A stretch of 64,000 nucleotides of DNA from an uncultured Dysgonomonas sp. (lineage in GTDB: Bacteria; Bacteroidota; Bacteroidia; Bacteroidales; Dysgonomonadaceae): positions 432,948 to 496,947 of the forward strand of contig NZ_LT599032.1 in the NCBI RefSeq assembly GCF_900079725.1. The letters run 5' to 3'. A program made the translations under genes and the position numbers. This document shows, piece after piece, positions 5,131-39,027 of this stretch. The notes below the pieces were generated by a model, which searched no databases, was not told the origin of the DNA, and saw nothing but the letters and a program-made list of their open reading frames with translations. The first letter of the stretch is position 1, and each line of letters starts with the position of its first letter.

Positions 5131-5253
5131 GGTTTATCGGCTATTCCTTTTACCCTCTCATCAAACATAAAAACAGCACGGATATTCGCTAATACCCGTA
5201 GATATAGATAAATATAATCTGTAATAATTATTTGTTCTCCGGAAATATATCCA

Positions 5254-5261
5254 TAAATTTG
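5254..5261 (+). promoter_or_regulatory. -7 box (TAAATTTG) of the TonB-dependent receptor gene
   Basis: Matches the Bacteroidetes -7 consensus TAnnTTTG and lies 27 bp before the ATG at 5288. No well-spaced -33 TTTG was found, which is common. Confidence 0.5.
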
Positions 5262-5287
5262 TTATTTATAAAACCAAACGCTAAACA

Positions 5288-7699
5288 ATGGCTAAAAAAC
5301 AATTCCTGTTATTACTCTTTTTAATTTCGGTTTCTTCCTATGCACAGAAAGTAAAAATTGCAGGAATAGTTACAGATAAAGATTTTCGTCCGTTGGAACA
5401 GGTGTCCGTATCGCAACCGAACACAAGCAATGGTGTATATACAAATAATTACGGGTTCTACGAACTGGAAGTGTTTCCCGAAGATTCCGTCAAACTTATT
5501 TTCTCTCTGATCGGTTACCAAAAACACCTCTATGTTATACCCAAGTTGGCAGAAGATTTCAGTCTGAGTGTTACACTGCACGAAGAAGATAGGAGCCTGG
5601 CTCCTGTTACAGTGGAAGGTGAACGCATGGTTACGACCGTAATTGGACGAATCGACTATATAGCTGCCAGGCGCCCTTCAAACCCGTGGAATAGTATAGA
5701 GTCCCTCCTGGCCACTATGGGAGGAGTAAGCTCTACAAATGAACTGAGTAACCAATATTCGGTACGTGGAGGAAACTTTGATGAAAACATCGTCTATGTA
5801 AACGGCATAGAGATATATCGCCCCCTGCTCGTACGGTCGGCACAGCAAGAAGGCCTTAGCTTTATCAATCCCAATATGGTACAGACGGTCGGATTTTCTG
5901 CCGGAGGCTTCAGCGCCGAGTATGGAGATAAGATGTCGTCGGTACTGGATATTACCTATAAAAGGCCGCAGCGATTCGAAGGCGCTGTTTCGGCAGGACT
6001 GCTCGGTGGAGAGATATATGTAGGCAATTCCTCCGAAAAATTTTCACAGGTTACCAGCGTCAGGTATAAGACATTGCGCTCCCTGTTGAGCACTACTGAT
6101 ACAAAAGCCGAGTATGACCCTTCTTTTCTCGATTTTCAGACATATATCACCTATAAGCTGGGTTCTAAATGGGAAGCCGGTTTCTTAGGAAATTATTCCT
6201 ATAATAAATATGAATTTACACCCGAAACACGCGAAACATCATTTGGTACATTAACGTCTCCCCGCACATTTACAGTTCATTTCAATGGATGGGAAAATGA
6301 CAGGTTCCTTACTTATCAGGGAGCACTGACTTTAAGAGGCAAGGTCACAGACAATCTGAATATAGGGTTTACAGCTTCCGCTTTTTCGTCCGACGAACAG
6401 GAACGATACGACATAGACGGACGCTATCTTTTACAGGAGTCAAGTCTGACAGGCGATGATGAAAATATCGGGTCACAACTGGCTATAGGCACCTACCATG
6501 AACATGCGCGCAATAAGTTGAAGTCGGATGTGTATACTTTCACTCATTCCGGCAATCTGAAGATAGACCGGAACATGCTGAAATGGAGTATCAGCTACCA
6601 AAAAGAAAAAATAAACGATAAGATAAAGGAATGGGAAATGCGCGACTCGGCAGGCTACTCCCTACCGAGTACCGGAACCGATGTAAATGTATTTTCGAAC
6701 CTGAAATCGGATAATAAAATCAGCCCTACCCGTATTTCGGGATATATACAAGATACCTACAATTTCAGTACAGATGCAGGCTTATTCATACTCAATGCAG
6801 GTGTGCGTGCCAGCTACTGGGCTTTCAATGAAGAGCTGATTGTAAGTCCGCGTGGAGCATTGGCTTTTGTGCCGACAGGGCTGGATAATCTTTCGTTGCG
6901 GGTAGCGGGAGGAGTGTATTACCAGGCTCCTTTTTATAAAGAATTTCAGCGCATTGTTAATGTAGATGGTAATAATGTCACAGAGCTGAATAAAGACATT
7001 AAGTCACAGAAGTCAATACATATCGTACTGGGTGCCGATTATTACTTCGGACGGGATATACAGAAGAATATTCCTCCGTTCAAATTATCAGGTGAAGTAT
7101 ATTACAAGAAATTGTCCGATCTTGTACCATATACCGTCAACAATGTAAAGATAAGATACACTGGAGAGAACTCCTCCAAAGGTTATTCTATGGGGGCAGA
7201 CGTAAAATTATATGGCGAATTTATCCCCGGGGCGGATAGTTGGATAAGCCTGTCGTTCATGAAGACCGAACAGGATATAAACGGAATAAAAGTACCTCTG
7301 CCTACCGACCAGCGATTCAATTTCGCTCTCTTCTATCAGGACTATTTCCCAGGATATGAACGTTTAAAAATGAGCCTGCGCGGTCTATGGTCGCAAGGGT
7401 TACCTGTATCTGCGCCATACAAAGGGTACGAAACCGGATATTTCCGTACGCCGAATTATAAACGTATCGACATCGGATTCTCATGGCTGATACTCGGAGA
7501 AGACTTTGCGATCCGCAACAGAAATTCATTCTGCAAAGCCTTTAAAAACATATGGTTGGGACTGGATGCATTTAACATCTTCGACATGCAGAATACAAAT
7601 ACTTACTATTGGATAACTGATGTGAATAACCAGCATCATGCCGTACCTAATTATCTAACGGGAAGACAACTGAATATGAGATTACTGGCAGAATTTTAA
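5288..7699 (+). CDS. TonB-dependent outer-membrane receptor
   Basis: 803 residues. Signal peptide (1-19, ending SYAQK), then a carboxypeptidase-regulatory-like domain (~22-97, KIAGIVTDKDFRPLEQVSV ... LIFSLIGYQ), a plug domain (~105-235, with YSVRGGNFDENIVYVNGIEI and GFSAGGFSAEYGDKMSSVLDI), and a barrel ending in an aromatic residue (LLAEF), as expected for BAM recognition. It imports a TonB-energised ligand across the outer membrane; the ligand cannot be told. No SusD partner, sigma or anti-sigma gene adjoins it, so it is not a standard Sus-type polysaccharide system. Single gene, stop 4 bp from the converging next gene. Confidence 0.92.
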   Translation: MAKKQFLLLLFLISVSSYAQKVKIAGIVTDKDFRPLEQVSVSQPNTSNGVYTNNYGFYELEVFPEDSVKLIFSLIGYQKHLYVIPKLAEDFSLSVTLHEEDRSLAPVTVEGERMVTTVIGRIDYIAARRPSNPWNSIESLLATMGGVSSTNELSNQYSVRGGNFDENIVYVNGIEIYRPLLVRSAQQEGLSFINPNMVQTVGFSAGGFSAEYGDKMSSVLDITYKRPQRFEGAVSAGLLGGEIYVGNSSEKFSQVTSVRYKTLRSLLSTTDTKAEYDPSFLDFQTYITYKLGSKWEAGFLGNYSYNKYEFTPETRETSFGTLTSPRTFTVHFNGWENDRFLTYQGALTLRGKVTDNLNIGFTASAFSSDEQERYDIDGRYLLQESSLTGDDENIGSQLAIGTYHEHARNKLKSDVYTFTHSGNLKIDRNMLKWSISYQKEKINDKIKEWEMRDSAGYSLPSTGTDVNVFSNLKSDNKISPTRISGYIQDTYNFSTDAGLFILNAGVRASYWAFNEELIVSPRGALAFVPTGLDNLSLRVAGGVYYQAPFYKEFQRIVNVDGNNVTELNKDIKSQKSIHIVLGADYYFGRDIQKNIPPFKLSGEVYYKKLSDLVPYTVNNVKIRYTGENSSKGYSMGADVKLYGEFIPGADSWISLSFMKTEQDINGIKVPLPTDQRFNFALFYQDYFPGYERLKMSLRGLWSQGLPVSAPYKGYETGYFRTPNYKRIDIGFSWLILGEDFAIRNRNSFCKAFKNIWLGLDAFNIFDMQNTNTYYWITDVNNQHHAVPNYLTGRQLNMRLLAEF

Positions 7700-7703
7700 G
7701 AGT

Positions 7704-8591
7704 TTACTCCATTTCTATGGAACATTCGTTTATTACAGTAATATCGCCATTGGTGACTACCTTTTGCATAATACTGTAAATAACCCAGCCCGAATCATGA
7801 AGGGCTGAATGAGTAGTGGTTTCATTCTCAAATTGCATATTCCGTACTGCTTCCATATCAAAACTTTTACCAACCGATTCCGATAGCTTCTTTAAATACT
7901 CGAGTGTAGCCACCGTCAGTTGTTCTTTATCTATGCTTTGCACCGATTTCAGCAAATATTCTTCATCCGACATTATCTCTTCCAGTCCGAAATAAGTATT
8001 GGCTGTGAAGGGCTTAGAACCCAATACATTCGGCACCTCAATTTCACCCTCCATATAATCACCTAACTTATATGTAACGCCATGAAACATATGATATTGA
8101 ATAATTTCGTTCACTCCTACCGACTCGATTGCTTCTTTAGTTGAGAAAGTAGATGTTATTTCTTTTTCCAACTTACCCAGTGATTCATCACTCGTTTCAC
8201 CTTTTTTTAAACCTTGCAGAATGCTGTTCGTTGTCCTGTTTACAAAATCCCTTATTTCTTCCCAGTTCAGAACTTCCTCAAATTCGCCCAGTTCATTTGT
8301 TTTATATATTACTTTCAGATCTTTATTAGCATTATTCTTATAAAGCCACTGTATGGTATAGGAATTTGCCGTAGAGTCCAGCACCGATAACTCTACATTA
8401 TAAACTACAGAATCTGAAGATATTATTTCTTCATTTTTCAATTGGGTCTTCTTGTTGATAACCTTATAATTGTGAGTCTCCCCTTTATCCCAGTAAGCAA
8501 TGACCTGCACTGTAGAATCCTCCGGATTGATTTGTCCGAAAATAGCGGCACTGCTGAGTAACAGAAATATTAAAACCGTAAGTTTTTTCAT
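7704..8591 (-). CDS. Secreted protein of unknown function
   Basis: 295 residues with a clear signal peptide (MKKLTVLIFLLLSSAAIFGQ). The mature part is acidic and beta/alpha mixed, with LKNEEIISSDSVVYNVELSVLD and a repeated pattern of short strands; no catalytic motif was recognised. It resembles in layout other Bacteroidales periplasmic proteins of about 300 residues that have no assigned role. Converges on the TonB receptor with 4 bp between stops. Probably monocistronic. Confidence 0.75.
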   Translation of the reverse strand: MKKLTVLIFLLLSSAAIFGQINPEDSTVQVIAYWDKGETHNYKVINKKTQLKNEEIISSDSVVYNVELSVLDSTANSYTIQWLYKNNANKDLKVIYKTNELGEFEEVLNWEEIRDFVNRTTNSILQGLKKGETSDESLGKLEKEITSTFSTKEAIESVGVNEIIQYHMFHGVTYKLGDYMEGEIEVPNVLGSKPFTANTYFGLEEIMSDEEYLLKSVQSIDKEQLTVATLEYLKKLSESVGKSFDMEAVRNMQFENETTTHSALHDSGWVIYSIMQKVVTNGDITVINECSIEME

Positions 8592-8735
8592 CCTTCTATT
8601 TTTTTGATGGATAAAAGTAAATAAAAAGATTGGGCTTATTCCTTCTGAAAAAATATATTGTGTCGGTGCTCTTCATTTAGACTATTTTTTAACAACTTTA
8701 ATAATTAATGCATATACATATTCTATCAAATGATA

Positions 8736-8743
8736 TACCTTTG
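8736..8743 (+). promoter_or_regulatory. -7 box (TACCTTTG) of the alcohol dehydrogenase gene
   Basis: Exact TAnnTTTG match 25 bp before the ATG at 8768. It lies downstream of an alternative in-frame ATG at 8708, which argues against that longer start. Confidence 0.6.
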
Positions 8744-8767
8744 CTCCAGTTACAAAAAGATACAATT

Positions 8768-9916
8768 ATGAACAACTTCGCTTATGCAAATCCCGTCAAA
8801 ATCATATTCGGGAAAGATACAATCAAGGAAATAACAAACGAAATACCGCAAAGTAGCAAAGTATTGATAACTTACGGTGGTGGCAGTATCAAAAAGAACG
8901 GAGTATACGACCAGACAGTGAAAGCCCTCGAAGGCTTTGAATGGTACGAATTCGCAGGAATAGAGCCCAATCCGCATTATGAGACTTGCATGAAAGCTGT
9001 AGAGTTTATCAAGGAAAAAGGGATAACTTTCCTTCTGTCCGTTGGTGGAGGCTCGGTACTGGATGCTACTAAATTTATCGCGGCAGCAGCCCTTTTCGAG
9101 GGCAACGAACCGTGGGATATCCTGTCGAAAGGCAGCGAAATAAAAAAAGCGATGCCATTTGCCGATATTATCACTTTACCGGCCACAGGTTCGGAAATGA
9201 ACAATGGAGGTGTTATTACCCGTGTATCCACAGAGGAAAAACTCGCCTTTTCTTCCGACTTCACTTATCCGTTATTTTCTGTACTCGACCCTACAGTAAC
9301 ATTCAGTCTGCCTGTACGTCAGGTAGGGAACGGCGTTGTAGATGCATTTGTACATGTGATGGAGCAATATCTCACATATAGCGAGAGTAATTCCCTGCTG
9401 CAGGATAATATGGCCGAAGCCATCGTTAAAACACTGGTAGAAGAAGGTCCGAAAGCGTTGAGCGATCCCCATAATTATGATGTACGCGCAAATCTGATGT
9501 GGGCTTCGACATGGGCGCTCAACGGATGGATAAACTGCGGTGTGCCTCAGGACTGGGCTACACATATGATAGGCCATGAGATTACAGCATTCTACGGCTT
9601 AGACCATGCGCAAACATTAGCGATCGTATTGCCGGGAGTAATGACCGTGCTGAAAGAACAGAAGTCGAAGAAAATAATCCGTCTTGGCCGCGAAGTATTC
9701 GGCATACAAGGTGACGGAGCTATAGAGAAGACAATAAAAGCTGTAGAGAATTTCTTTGAAACAATGGGTGTTAAAACACATTTGTCTGACTATAACCTCG
9801 GTAACGAAGCCGTGGAAAAGGTAAGTAAACGGCTTGCCGAACGTGGCTGGAAGTTAGGCGAATGTCATAATATAACAGCCGATACAATAAAAGAGATACT
9901 TACATTGAGAAAATAA
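8768..9916 (+). CDS. Iron-containing alcohol dehydrogenase (butanol dehydrogenase/YqhD type)
   Basis: 382 residues from the ATG at 8768 (MNNFAYANPVKIIFGKDT), matching the usual N-terminus and length of YqhD/BdhA enzymes. Seen: the nucleotide-binding GGGSVLDATKFIAAAA, the PATGSEMNNGGVITR segment, and metal ligands in DAFVHVMEQY and ATHMIGHEITAFYGLDHAQTLAI. These enzymes reduce aldehydes with NAD(P)H in the cytosol, serving fermentation or aldehyde detoxification; the physiological substrate is not evident. Own promoter and terminator, so it is monocistronic. Confidence 0.92.
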   Translation: MNNFAYANPVKIIFGKDTIKEITNEIPQSSKVLITYGGGSIKKNGVYDQTVKALEGFEWYEFAGIEPNPHYETCMKAVEFIKEKGITFLLSVGGGSVLDATKFIAAAALFEGNEPWDILSKGSEIKKAMPFADIITLPATGSEMNNGGVITRVSTEEKLAFSSDFTYPLFSVLDPTVTFSLPVRQVGNGVVDAFVHVMEQYLTYSESNSLLQDNMAEAIVKTLVEEGPKALSDPHNYDVRANLMWASTWALNGWINCGVPQDWATHMIGHEITAFYGLDHAQTLAIVLPGVMTVLKEQKSKKIIRLGREVFGIQGDGAIEKTIKAVENFFETMGVKTHLSDYNLGNEAVEKVSKRLAERGWKLGECHNITADTIKEILTLRK

Positions 9917-9936
9917 TATTCTATTTTATTTAATAG

Positions 9937-9966
9937 AAAGAGTGAGGACTATGATTCTCACTCTTT
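9937..9966 (+). terminator. Terminator after alcohol dehydrogenase
   Basis: Perfect 10-bp stem AAAGAGTGAG / CTCACTCTTT with a 10-nt loop, 20 bp after the stop. Confidence 0.8.
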
Positions 9967-10026
9967 TGTTATTGACAGACCAATCAGAATTAAGCTTTGG
10001 TATAGAATTTGTAGTATGTTTTTTAC

Positions 10027-10034
10027 TACTTTTG
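10027..10034 (+). promoter_or_regulatory. -7 box (TACTTTTG) of mfd
   Basis: Exact TAnnTTTG match. It lies downstream of the first in-frame ATG (10016) and upstream of the TTG at 10064, which supports the TTG as the real start. Confidence 0.5.
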
Positions 10035-10063
10035 TATCCCGAAGATTAAATAAGTTTACTACA

Positions 10064-36825: not shown

Positions 36826-36881
36826 TACTGATTGCTTCTGTGCTATTTATAGCATATATAACCGCCTTAGTTATCTCCTGA
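36822..36881 (+). CDS. 19-residue hydrophobic peptide ORF
   Basis: ATG overlapping the previous stop by 4 bp; encodes MILIASVLFIAYITALVIS, a single membrane helix. Translational coupling makes it plausible as a tiny phage membrane peptide, but it may be chance. Confidence 0.3.
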   Translation: MILIASVLFIAYITALVIS

Positions 36882-37323
36882 AAAAGTGCAGCCGAATTTG
36901 ATAAACACGATCCTACTTTTTAAACCATAACATTCTATATATAAGAGTATTAATCAAGCAAAATGTTGCTTGTCATGCGATAGCTATGCTCTAAAGGCTA
37001 CAGATAAGATCAGCCCTGTTCGATCAGGGGTAGCCACAAACGCAAGATCTTTGACATGTTGGACGCTATATAAAACATTAGAACTGCCTAGCGTAGCAGA
37101 TCTGCTATATCCTGATGAGATAAACCGGATAGGCGAAAGTTGAGGACTGACCTCTGACGGCAGACGTATAAGCGTTAACGAGACAAACGTAATGAAAAAG
37201 AATATTTAGCACCATCGAGGCACATATGAGGCTATTGGGTGTGAACAAATATAAAACAAATCATGCATATACTTGGGGTGTCAGTGATGTATATCAAACC
37301 CTGCATGATTGAAAATATAAAGG
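36882..37323 (+). ncRNA. Candidate structured noncoding region, left part
   Basis: About 440 bp with no ATG-initiated gene. It is visibly richer in G+C than its neighbours (I count 32 of 70 bases in 36991-37060). Perfect stems include GGCTAC (36996-37001)/GTAGCC (37030-37035) stacked on CCCTG/CAGGG with a T-arm-like TTCGAT loop; ACGCTA (37063-37068)/TAGCGT (37089-37094); and a set enclosed by CTGCC (37084-37088)/GGCAG (37159-37163) containing TAGCAG/CTGCTA, TATCC/GGATA and GAGG/CCTC hairpins. The right end is a hairpin at 37259-37310. Elevated GC plus nested stems in an AT-rich phage suggests RNA rather than protein. Strand is assumed from the operon. Confidence 0.45.
37259..37310 (+). ncRNA. 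Hairpin/pseudoknot element A
   Basis: Outer stem AATCATGCA / TGCATGATT (9 bp, perfect). Directly inside, TATAC (37268) / GTATA (37289) and GGGT (37276) / ACCC (37298) interleave as an H-type pseudoknot flush with the outer stem. A nested alternative with GGGT/ACCC and TGAT/ATCA is also possible. Shares ACTTGGGGTGT with element B at 37681. Confidence 0.5.
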
Positions 37324-37395
37324 TGCTTCGTAGTTCAGCGGAAGAACATCACGGTGATAACGAGAAGGTCGGTAGTTCGAATCTACCCGAAGCCA
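37324..37395 (+). tRNA. tRNA-Ile (anticodon GAT), phage-encoded, imperfect
   Basis: A 72-nt cloverleaf: acceptor TGCTTCG/CGAAGCC with a 1-72 mismatch, D-stem GTTC/GAAC with GG in the loop, anticodon stem TCACG/CGAGA with one A-A mismatch, loop GTGATAA giving anticodon GAT after T33, and a perfect T-arm GGTAG-TTCGAAT-CTACC. CCA is not encoded. The mismatches mean it could be specialised or decaying. It lies 36 bp before a small ORF. Confidence 0.75.
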
Positions 37396-37431
37396 CAATG
37401 CAATAAAGCAGATAACTAAAAACAAATAATT

Positions 37432-37671
37432 ATGTCACGTAAACATTATTCAGAGGACGAAGTGATTAGAGTATTGTCAAAGAAAAACGACATTCGGATA
37501 TTAAAGGTTAACAAAGAAATACGTATTCTTTCGGATAAAATAGTCACTTCAAATGGTATCTCAACTAGAAACCCGAACAAACGATTTGATCTTGGAAACG
37601 GAAGTTGGGGGAAAATAGACTATCTGACCAAATTTCATGGATATGATATATGGAAGGTATCTAAATTCTAA
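37432..37671 (+). CDS. Small phage protein between the two structured regions
   Basis: 79 residues: MSRKHYSEDEVIRVLSKKND, then VNKEIRILSDKIVTSNGIST and GNGSWGKIDYLTKFHGYDIWKV. Basic, alpha/beta. No family recognised. It is isolated: 36 bp after the tRNA-like gene and followed by 530 bp without a gene, so it may be co-transcribed with the structured RNAs. Confidence 0.6.
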   Translation: MSRKHYSEDEVIRVLSKKNDIRILKVNKEIRILSDKIVTSNGISTRNPNKRFDLGNGSWGKIDYLTKFHGYDIWKVSKF

Positions 37672-37680
37672 ATAAATAAT

Positions 37681-37739
37681 TCTCCGAACAGTACGATTCT
37701 GTGTAATAAACTTGGGTGTTTGTCGGAGAGCAACCCCAA
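37681..37739 (+). ncRNA. Hairpin/pseudoknot element B
   Basis: TCTCCGA (37681-37687) / TCGGAGA (37723-37729), 7 bp perfect, enclosing a small ACAG/CTGT hairpin, interleaved with TTGGG (37712-37716) / CCCAA (37735-37739). The two long-range stems are either a pseudoknot or mutually exclusive. ACTTGGGTGT matches element A. Confidence 0.5.
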
Positions 37740-38196
37740 CATAGATTGAAGATGACCGTAATTATTACTTATGTGTAGCATTTTTGGTAGGGTTATTTAT
37801 ACCGATGACATATTGGAAAGAATAGAGATACGACAATACGGACGGGTTTAATACACTAAACGGTAATTATTACAATGATGACTACGCTTACGCTTCTTGC
37901 GATACGAAAGATGACTGCTCGGAAAGACGGGCAGATATGATAGGATGCAGAAATGGTATCTGCTGAATAAGAGAAATCGAGGCTGGAGTAGTTTAAACCA
38001 GTCGATGGCGGCTAAGCGCACCCACAAAACCAATAAGAGGTGCCGATATGGGGGCGCAATTATGAGTTCAAATCTCATACCTATCACACGTATCTGCACT
38101 AGCAGATTTGTTTCATGATTAAAAGAGTTTCAGCGCTCTGAGTCGGGATGATTCGGGGTGCTTTTGTTTTGAACGAATTATTAAACTTTAAATAAA
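37740..38196 (+). other. Noncoding region, right part
   Basis: About 450 bp without a confident gene. It holds an 11-bp direct repeat GTAATTATTAC (37758-37768 and 37863-37873), hairpins CTGCTCG/CGGGCAG (37914-37933), CTGG/CCAG (37983-38000), GCACC/GGTGC (38017-38043), a T-arm-like TATGAG-TTCAAAT-CTCATA (38061-38079), and ATCTGC/GCAGAT with a 4-nt loop followed by TTTGTTTC (38092-38115), which is terminator-like. A start-less open frame (37826-37965) looks oddly protein-like. Confidence 0.4.
38092..38115 (+). terminator. Terminator-like hairpin ending the structured region
   Basis: Stem ATCTGC/GCAGAT, loop ACTA, followed by TTTGTTTC. Short stem, moderate T-tract. Confidence 0.45.
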
Positions 38197-38202
38197 TTGA
38201 GT

Positions 38203-39027
38203 ATGAATTTTCAAGAATTAAAAAAAGTAGTATTAGCGGTAGCCGAAAAGAAAGCTCCCGACTGTTCCCAGACAAAAAGATTAAGTGAGTGTAACACTAT
38301 CGAAGAGTTATGCGAAGTAGCAAAAGACAATCTCGATTGGGTAAGAAATAACCTTTCTATTCAAGAACTTATCCAAAAGTATGACAATCCAGAAGTATTC
38401 AATATCGGGAAGGATAATACGGGCTTGTTTAACTCTGGCGACCGTAACTCTGGCTACCGTAACTCTGGCTACCGTAACTCTGGCGACCGTAACTCTGGCG
38501 ACCTTAACTCTGGCTACCGTAACTCTGGCGACCGTAACTCTGGCGACCTTAACTCTGGCGACCTTAACTCTGGCGACCTTAACTCTGGCTACCGTAACTC
38601 TGGCGACCGTAACTCTGGCGACCTTAACTCTGGCGACCTTAACTCTGGCGACCGTAACTCTGGCTACCGTAACTCTGGCGACCGTAACTCTGGCGTTTTC
38701 TGCACACGCAAACGTGAAGATACAGTTCCCATTTTCAACAAAGATAGCGGTATGACTTGGGACGAATGGTATAACCATCCTGCATATAACGCTGCTTATG
38801 GATTAATGATTACAAAGTGGGTATCATGGAATAACATGACGGACGAAGAAAAGAAAGACAATCCTAAAGCATTTGTTCCAGAAGGATATGTAAAAGTTTA
38901 TACATACCATGAAGCGTGGGCGAATCTTTGGAAAACACTTTCAGACAGCACGAAAAACTCATTTAAAGAATTACCGAACTACGATCCAGACATTTTCGAG
39001 GAAGTTACAGGAATCCGATTTAATTAA
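38203..39027 (+). CDS. NxGxx pentapeptide-repeat phage protein
   Basis: 274 residues from ATG 38203. A helical N-domain (1-75) is followed by about 20 pentads NxGxx (NIGKD, NTGLF, 17 copies of NSG[D/Y][R/L], NSGVF), then a ~95-residue C-domain rich in aromatic residues (MTWDEWYNHPAYNAAYGLMI; KVYTYHEAWANLWKTL). NxGxx repeats fold as a beta-solenoid in other proteins. The role is unknown; proteins of this layout recur in Bacteroidales phages. The repeat is encoded by a near-perfect 15-bp minisatellite, which invites copy-number change. Confidence 0.75.
   Translation: MNFQELKKVVLAVAEKKAPDCSQTKRLSECNTIEELCEVAKDNLDWVRNNLSIQELIQKYDNPEVFNIGKDNTGLFNSGDRNSGYRNSGYRNSGDRNSGDLNSGYRNSGDRNSGDLNSGDLNSGDLNSGYRNSGDRNSGDLNSGDLNSGDRNSGYRNSGDRNSGVFCTRKREDTVPIFNKDSGMTWDEWYNHPAYNAAYGLMITKWVSWNNMTDEEKKDNPKAFVPEGYVKVYTYHEAWANLWKTLSDSTKNSFKELPNYDPDIFEEVTGIRFN
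38431..38685 (+). repeat. 15-bp minisatellite inside the NxGxx gene
   Basis: 17 tandem units of AACTCTGGCGACCGT with only two variable positions (GCG/GCT and CGT/CTT), coding NSG[DY][RL]. Near-identity at the DNA level indicates recent expansion. All three rightward frames and one leftward frame stay open through it. Confidence 0.92.

Follow-up and report, generated by a model that had tools for sequence, protein, structure and literature searches.

A putative family of large, modular phage RNAs behind an rRNA-type boxA in Dysgonomonas

A Dysgonomonas prophage carries, from position 36996 to ~38170 of the window (the whole 64,000-nt stretch of DNA analysed), a modular and apparently noncoding RNA unit: module order and pairing are conserved in relatives, the letters of a boxA are shared, and terminator hairpins are present. 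The unit looks like a new family of large, fast-evolving phage RNA, found in this prophage and a few related phages. We consider, with moderate confidence, that it is a phage noncoding RNA unit in which an rrn-like boxA leader would enable polymerase to transcribe a long untranslated RNA interspersed with tRNA-like elements.

An earlier note on this DNA had offered a long phage noncoding RNA as one explanation of the region. Compensatory changes in relatives and conserved modules around variable cargo support that explanation, as far as sequence comparison can. Neither the boxA leader nor a comparison with other phages figured in the note. The proposed bounds, 36882-38196, move inwards on both sides, to ~36996 for the conserved 5' edge and ~38170 for the 3' edge, and the two noncoding stretches flanking a 79-aa ORF were found as described. 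The statement that no ORF with a start is present was too strong: short ORFs with starts overlap the structured modules, namely 47 aa (ATG, 37263-37406), 57 aa (ATG, 37945-38118) and, on the minus strand, 83 aa (GTG, 37848-38099), and just two stretches of the window that lack an ATG ORF of at least 60 aa are longer than 36826-37431. The local G+C count of 32/70 at 36991-37060 is correct, although 10-13% of 70-nt windows are equally G+C-rich; G+C is 38.3% over 36882-38196 against 36.8% for the whole window.

Conserved modules and pairing

Seven loci have the core of the unit, domains B and C. Five belong to four Dysgonomonas genomes, namely the window locus (W, genome G000), G009 (L029), G018 (L030) and two loci of G017 (C3, L004/L027; C5, L028), and the other two are on the IMG/VR contigs L036 (L005/L036) and L227. 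An eighth locus, in G003 (L214), has the 5' module only. From 5' to 3' the modules are an acceptor/T-arm-like hairpin, boxA, domain B and domain C, with a large tRNA-like element (TLS2) and a terminator hairpin in addition at five loci.

Domain B (37258..37311, plus strand) is a closing stem, AATCATGCA/TGCATGATT in the window, around the core CTTGGGGTGTCAG..AACCC, and the flanks of this core (..GGGGT..AACCC) pair at all seven loci. The stems themselves read AATCATGCA/TGCATGATT, TCGCATA/TATGCGA, TATGTAC/GTACATA and AGCACG/TGTGCT, with near variants. Because MAFFT misplaces the 5' arms across all types of the domain, pairing was instead assessed by a longest-stem test on five representatives, with the near copies G009 and G017-C3 left out and with W and L036 sharing one stem. 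The longest stems sum to 36 pairs; when the 5' flanks are shuffled 2000 times, the sum averages 16 and never exceeds 26. When the arms of six distinct stems (chosen by eye) are swapped, Watson-Crick pairs number 51/194, compared with 42/43 for each stem's own arms.

Domain C (37681..37739, plus strand) is a predicted pseudoknot of helices S1 (TCTCCGA/TCGGAGA), for which we have alignment statistics, and S2 (TTGGG/CCCAA), recognised by inspection. In a sequence-only alignment of five rows (A5, with G017 as one row), 24/24 cells of S1 are paired and 5/7 pairs show changes in both arms; of 500 shuffles, 0-8 do as well on the five measures used, and slid versions of the helix pair at 46-58%. The signal comes mostly from W, G018 and G009, since the rows of L036 and G017 have gaps at this helix, and the arm swap is weaker than for domain B (Watson-Crick 66/102 swapped vs 28/28 own, stems again chosen by eye). 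The short S2 helix can be seen by eye at 7/7 loci, with a bulge or mismatch required in L227. The homologue search and stem-change check that had been suggested have yielded relatives, compensatory changes in S1 and preserved pairing in the closing stem of domain B. Domains B and C are the two elements that the earlier note had called pseudoknot-capable, and of these the comparison backs the B closing stem and S1. A further helix upstream, domain A (37202..37252, plus strand; ATATTT/AAATAT and GCACC/GGTGT), is conserved in sequence in L036 and offers no covariation as a test.

Folding energy bears out part of the earlier description of two structured stretches: 37672-38196 beats its shuffles (z -3.2, 0/100), whereas 36882-37323 does not (z 0.20, 56/100 as good). 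When 14 pieces were folded singly against shuffles, z fell below -2 for the 5' hairpins of the window (-4.2) and G018 (-2.3), the window TLS2 (-2.7), the L036 stem plus domain C (-3.0) and two terminator hairpins (-4.3 and -4.8). Domain B at three loci, domain C of the window, TLS2 of L036 and L028, tRNA-Cys and tRNA-Ile lie between -0.7 and -1.7, and domains B and C of the window, taken alone, are unremarkable (-1.4 and -1.1). The whole G009 unit folds no better than shuffles (z -0.09). The compact version in L227, of 558 nt, reaches z -2.8 with 0/100 shuffles as good.

The boxA leader and the early operon

The unit opens with a hairpin at the position of a boxB (36996..37035, plus strand; GGCTAC/GTAGCC and CCCTG-TTCGAT-CAGGG) that resembles an acceptor and T-arm and is equalled by 0/200 shuffles (z -4.17). 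The G018 hairpin (L030) has the same fold (z -2.27, 4/200) with one compensatory pair, G-C to A-T, and the remaining loci have different stems, chosen by eye, at this place. In L227 a 78-nt element occupies the place; its acceptor has 7 bp (one of them G-T) and its T-arm reads GACAG-TTCGATT-CTGTC. The hairpins of the window and G018 may be homologous to it.

At all eight loci the hairpin is followed, 9-12 nt on, by a boxA-like box. That of the window, GATCTTTGACATG (37046..37058, plus strand), is the same 13-mer that stands behind all four host 16S genes. The host genome has five exact copies, the one in the window and one behind each 16S gene, where it starts 532 nt behind the gene; the reversed control gives 0. 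In L034, the one host operon examined, 16S is followed by tRNA-Ile, tRNA-Ala, the box and 23S, and in the rrn spacer of G018 a tRNA-Ile and a tRNA-Ala likewise precede the box. The pattern GWTCTTTGACATG occurs at six places genome-wide, comprising the four rrn operons, the phage and one GTTC form elsewhere, with none in the reversed control; the G009 and G017 genomes have no exact GWTCTTTGACATG. Judged by its match to the host rrn box, then, the window copy is exact, and the other loci differ, with GTTCTTTGATG, GTTCTTTGGCT, GTTCTTTGCCA, GTTCTTTGACG, GATCTTTAATC and GATTTTTGACATA. A sequence model (R1) that was derived from the 5' module of five loci detects the box at all other loci but L227.

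For comparison, the E. coli boxA consensus is GYTCTTTAANA (PMC5725501, in the portion available). The accessible text of PMC10250234 describes boxA as both required and sufficient for the rrn antitermination complex, places a second set upstream of 23S rRNA and proposes a role for the complex in folding of the nascent rRNA. A lone GTTCTTTGACATG was noticed in apparently intergenic host DNA (L210 ~486; G000 C1 3951985), with a hairpin and its T-rich tail behind it, and GTTC sites resembling it occur in other genomes of the genus. Letters reminiscent of a hammerhead near 37115 do not, by eye, form a hammerhead fold.

The locus lies in what looks like an early phage operon, with the anti-repressor side before it and the recombination genes after it. 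Upstream, a minus-strand ORF resembles a repressor (S24 peptidase, under the Pfam cut-off), and the plus-strand order is anti-repressor (Rha/ANT), small ORFs, an HTH protein, the RNA locus, a pentapeptide-repeat protein, a Sak4-like protein and a sliding clamp; by reading, a 19-codon ORF stops at 36881. The pentapeptide-repeat gene (PF01469, phrog_14105; window 38203-39027) contains a near-perfect DNA repeat, and a similar repeat protein is found inside the G017 RNA locus.

The lambda nut and HK022 put antitermination sites also consist of a hairpin and a boxA early in a phage operon. The main rival reading is that the unit is a cis-acting regulatory leader like nutR or put, in which antitermination serves the delayed-early recombination genes and the RNA itself is functionless. 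We consider this rather unlikely as an account of the family, although the position between the early regulators and the Sak4-like recombination gene suits it and G009 and G018 fit it well: the G009 pseudoknot ends ~14 nt before the next gene, presumably of ERF type, with no terminator between, and the G018 unit runs into the next genes. It sits less easily with W, L036, L027, L028 and L227, where a terminator hairpin stands before the next gene. Unlike nut and put, moreover, the unit has conserved structure over several hundred nt, tRNA-like parts included, and at five loci its own terminator hairpin.

tRNA-like elements, terminators and cargo

The large tRNA-like element of the window, TLS2 (37938..38086, plus strand), has an acceptor, a D-arm and the T-arm ATGAG-TTCAAAT-CTCAT, with a central domain of ~98 nt where a tRNA would have its anticodon and variable arms (z -2.7, 2/200 shuffles as good). 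Acceptor, D-arm and T-arm all form in the unconstrained fold; the acceptor is absent from one constrained fold, whose forced register cannot pair, and forms in the free folds. Scanning the 64 kb, both strands included, for a TTCRANY loop on a 5-bp T-stem gave four T-arms, two of them in the RNA locus (tRNA-Ile and TLS2), and the remaining two (7316 and 31215) likewise have 6-of-7 acceptor matches; one strand of the shuffled 64 kb gives a mean of 0.45, or 0.25 with an acceptor. T-arms with acceptors of 6-7 bp stand at the TLS2 place in L036, L027 and L028, with an extra T-arm in L036 at 10020, and both T-arms found in the 14.6 kb of L227 (both strands) lie inside its RNA locus. The scan finds no T-arm at the G009, G018 and G003 loci.

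TLS2 measures 149 nt in W, 140 in L036, 162 in L027, 111 in L028 and 147 in L227, and those of L036 and L028 are not significant by fold energy (z -1.5 and -1.7). Acceptor and T arms agree with a canonical tRNA, the D-arm is unclear in L028 and L036, and neither ARAGORN nor the Rfam tRNA model calls TLS2 a tRNA. In L036, L027 and L227 the element begins TGGCGGAAT..GGTAGACGC, which we take to be a tRNA-Leu-like start. Such acceptor and T arms (mostly D arms as well), kept around an anticodon region that is replaced or extended to a total of 111-162 nt, are what one might expect of decoys or substitutes against a tRNA-cutting host defence, an idea that stems from the phage tRNA literature, with the rest of the RNA as scaffold. 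We regard this as highly improbable for the family; the T-arm scan detects no such element in G009 and G018.

Behind TLS2 are a small hairpin (38092..38107, plus strand) and the terminator-like hairpin with its T tail (38132..38170, plus strand; z -4.3, 0/200), for which aligned relatives exist in L036, L027 and L028. The earlier note's terminator-like end is thereby confirmed (38132-38162, 14 pairs plus T tail, fold z -4.3). The terminator hairpin precedes the next gene in W, L036, L027, L028 and L227, and none was found in G009, G018 and G003.

Between domains B and C, at insertion site I, the window carries a tRNA-Ile (GAT; 37324..37396, plus strand) with an anticodon-stem mismatch by reading. 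The tRNA gene that had been predicted was recovered here at 37324-37396 (52 bits, ARAGORN/Rfam), and the suggested tRNA-like array holds in part only, the unit comprising one tRNA, one large tRNA-like element and the shortened acceptor/T-arm-like hairpin that leads it. The second item of cargo is the 79-aa ORF (37432..37671, plus strand), which is not conserved with the RNA. Within the genus its protein is confined to its own genome (1/25), with distant homologues in a crAss-like phage (MH616963.1, 34%) and a gut phage contig (MT836835.1, 37%). The proposal that it is the protein partner of the RNA is thus not supported; it is cargo.

At other loci the same slot holds different material: a nuclease-like ORF (Pfam CapR domain under cut-off; HNH by reading), a tRNA-like element and a repeat-protein ORF in G017-C3; a tRNA-like element and a repeat-protein ORF in G017-C5, which has another ORF ahead of domain B; a plain stem in L036; and a hairpin in L227. 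By reading, the tRNA-Cys calls of G017 carry a C at position 33, and their fold includes a hairpin with a GTAA loop, so they may not decode. In G017-C3 (L027 148-807, ~808-830; L004 723-784), the nuclease-like ORF is seen between a type II domain B and a type I remnant (..ATATATCAAACCCTGCATGATTG), as though the RNA had been interrupted by an insertion or a recombination event.

This variety would suit a decaying or shuffling island of tRNA and small-gene cargo whose structures are leftover tRNAs and terminators. The cargo varies between loci, the tRNA-Ile scores 52 bits vs 74 and 66 bits for the two host spacer tRNAs, and the tRNA-Cys calls are odd. Stems that are rewritten and yet remain paired are unexpected under decay, and module order is constant; we consider such an island improbable.

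Distribution, known systems and a proposed mechanism

Blast against 61 genomes returned, besides the window, strong matches of short length in G009, G018 and G017; in IMG/VR, L005/L036 was found as well, and L227 through the second type of domain B. At E < 1e-5, R1 hits 5/25 genus genomes, of which G000, G017 (twice), G018 and G009 are recovered by construction and G003 is new (9e-6); L227 is missed. The type I pattern of domain B gives one stretch in 84,980 species genomes, on the G009 contig, and one in IMG/VR (L005). The type II pattern gives L227 only in IMG/VR and, at 3 mismatches, 0/395 Bacteroidia genomes, a sample with two Dysgonomonas genomes and without G017. The terminator pattern finds the L036 contig only in IMG/VR, and the Sak4-like protein as bait finds no relative there. 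IMG/VR contig L037 is the same DNA as the G018 locus L030 (7,794/7,794 identical where aligned). The locus has no blastn match among 50,697 phage and 72,556 plasmid records, from which records of or near its own genome may be absent. No convincing relative was found beyond the Dysgonomonas genomes and two IMG/VR contigs in an order sample of 393, a class sample of 395 and, for the type I core, 84,980 species genomes; exact patterns would miss distant forms. No description of this RNA was found in the open-licence literature, a scope outside which most subscription papers fall.

Most further candidates were rejected. The exact box-flank pattern AAACGCAAGWTCTTTG gives 44 stretches in IMG/VR, all within open frames of 81 to 1934 codons. 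The pattern AAANGCAAGWTCTTTG occurs at 50 places in 39 of 393 Bacteroidales genomes vs 6 for the reversed control; among the 30 loci read (20 places being without a locus of their own), L153 and L154 were already known, 27 lie in open frames of at least 75 codons, and L160 has an open frame of just 36 codons but a weak upstream fold alone. R1 over the 393-genome order sample gives nine weak matches outside Dysgonomonas (E 0.002-0.01), eight in open frames of at least 266 codons and the ninth, L224, near a contig end. A match of MT839077 to the L005 sequence (22 nt, E 0.6) was taken as chance because L031 3400-4599 held no other module when read.

Some neighbouring features were also observed. 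Behind the boxA leader of G003 (L214 ~5160-6190, minus strand) is ~1 kb of A-rich DNA with no long ORF on that strand and no recognisable domain B or C; the leader may serve a different type of RNA there. Copies of a 27-nt sequence, GTGTAGTTTTGTAAAGTTTGTGTTAAG, are found across the genus, at L227 (~10235-10205, minus strand), L231-L233, L238 and eight G000 places; at up to 2 mismatches the sequence has 8 copies in the window's own genome and 0 in the reversed control, and it is absent from the window. A terminator-like hairpin follows it directly in the four loci read, and the L227 query has some blastn match in 24/25 genus genomes, mostly at this part. Behind the RNA of G018 lie a reverse transcriptase gene (RVT_1) and an RT-17 RNA (RF03020, 44 bits), at L030 2088-3236 and 3100-3182 (minus strand), in a region with repeated G+C-rich stretches that resembles a diversity-generating retroelement; by reading, L227 ~8300-10060 looks similar.

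With regard to known families, tRNA alone matches Rfam at gathering score in the window and five loci (the Rfam searches took in all loci but G003), and the locus therefore cannot be assigned to GOLLD, ROOL or tmRNA. The GOLLD and ROOL models are unmatched also at relaxed E-values in the window region, L036 and L227. The unit resembles tmRNA in its tRNA-like acceptor and T-arm, replaced anticodon arm and nearby pseudoknot; neither ARAGORN nor Rfam makes a tmRNA call. The available text of PMC12286853 describes GOLLD and ROOL as large structured phage or prophage RNAs of unknown function, often near tRNA islands, with GOLLD linkers that sometimes hold tRNAs; the words boxA and antitermination do not occur in that portion. 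As with GOLLD, the RNA described here lies in a prophage or phage near a tRNA, but its core is smaller and comes with much variable cargo, and it matches neither Rfam model. By analogy it probably works most like GOLLD and ROOL, and it is not filed as a member of either because neither model matches. In the part of PMC2864571 at hand, the table has no Rfam accession for the Bacteroides-2 motif.

Another close parallel, in arrangement, is the host 16S-23S spacer (rrnTAC), which likewise combines a tRNA or tRNA-like element, boxA and a structured RNA, shares the exact 13-mer and, like the phage, has a tRNA-Ile GAT. The phage box differs in preceding a phage RNA rather than 23S rRNA, the phage tRNA-Ile stands behind the box, and the spelling of the box varies among phages. 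It is possible, and we suggest it tentatively, that the phage copied the logic of the host spacer (tRNA-like element, rRNA boxA, large structured RNA, second tRNA-like element), so that host rRNA antitermination, folding and tRNA processing would give rise to a stable RNA of the phage, as a particle or associated with ribosomes, whose variable slots take up tRNAs and small genes.

In the noncoding RNA unit as we envisage it, we infer antitermination by the host rrn machinery, processing at the tRNA-like elements and a function exercised by the RNA itself. Polymerase arriving from the upstream early genes would transcribe the unit, and boxA, by predicted binding, would load the host NusB/S10 antitermination machinery. 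An untranslated RNA of at least 0.6 kb could then escape Rho and fold correctly, as rRNA does. The tRNA-like elements may direct processing (RNase P, RNase Z) or stabilise the RNA, and the core made up of domains A to C, once released, would be the functional RNA, acting like GOLLD and ROOL.

A family of phage RNAs behind a host rRNA boxA provides a testable idea of how long untranslated phage RNAs get made, and L227, with 558 nt, is a compact natural version to work with. In addition, the family offers an example of tRNA-like elements whose anticodon region has been replaced and whose place within a phage RNA is constant.
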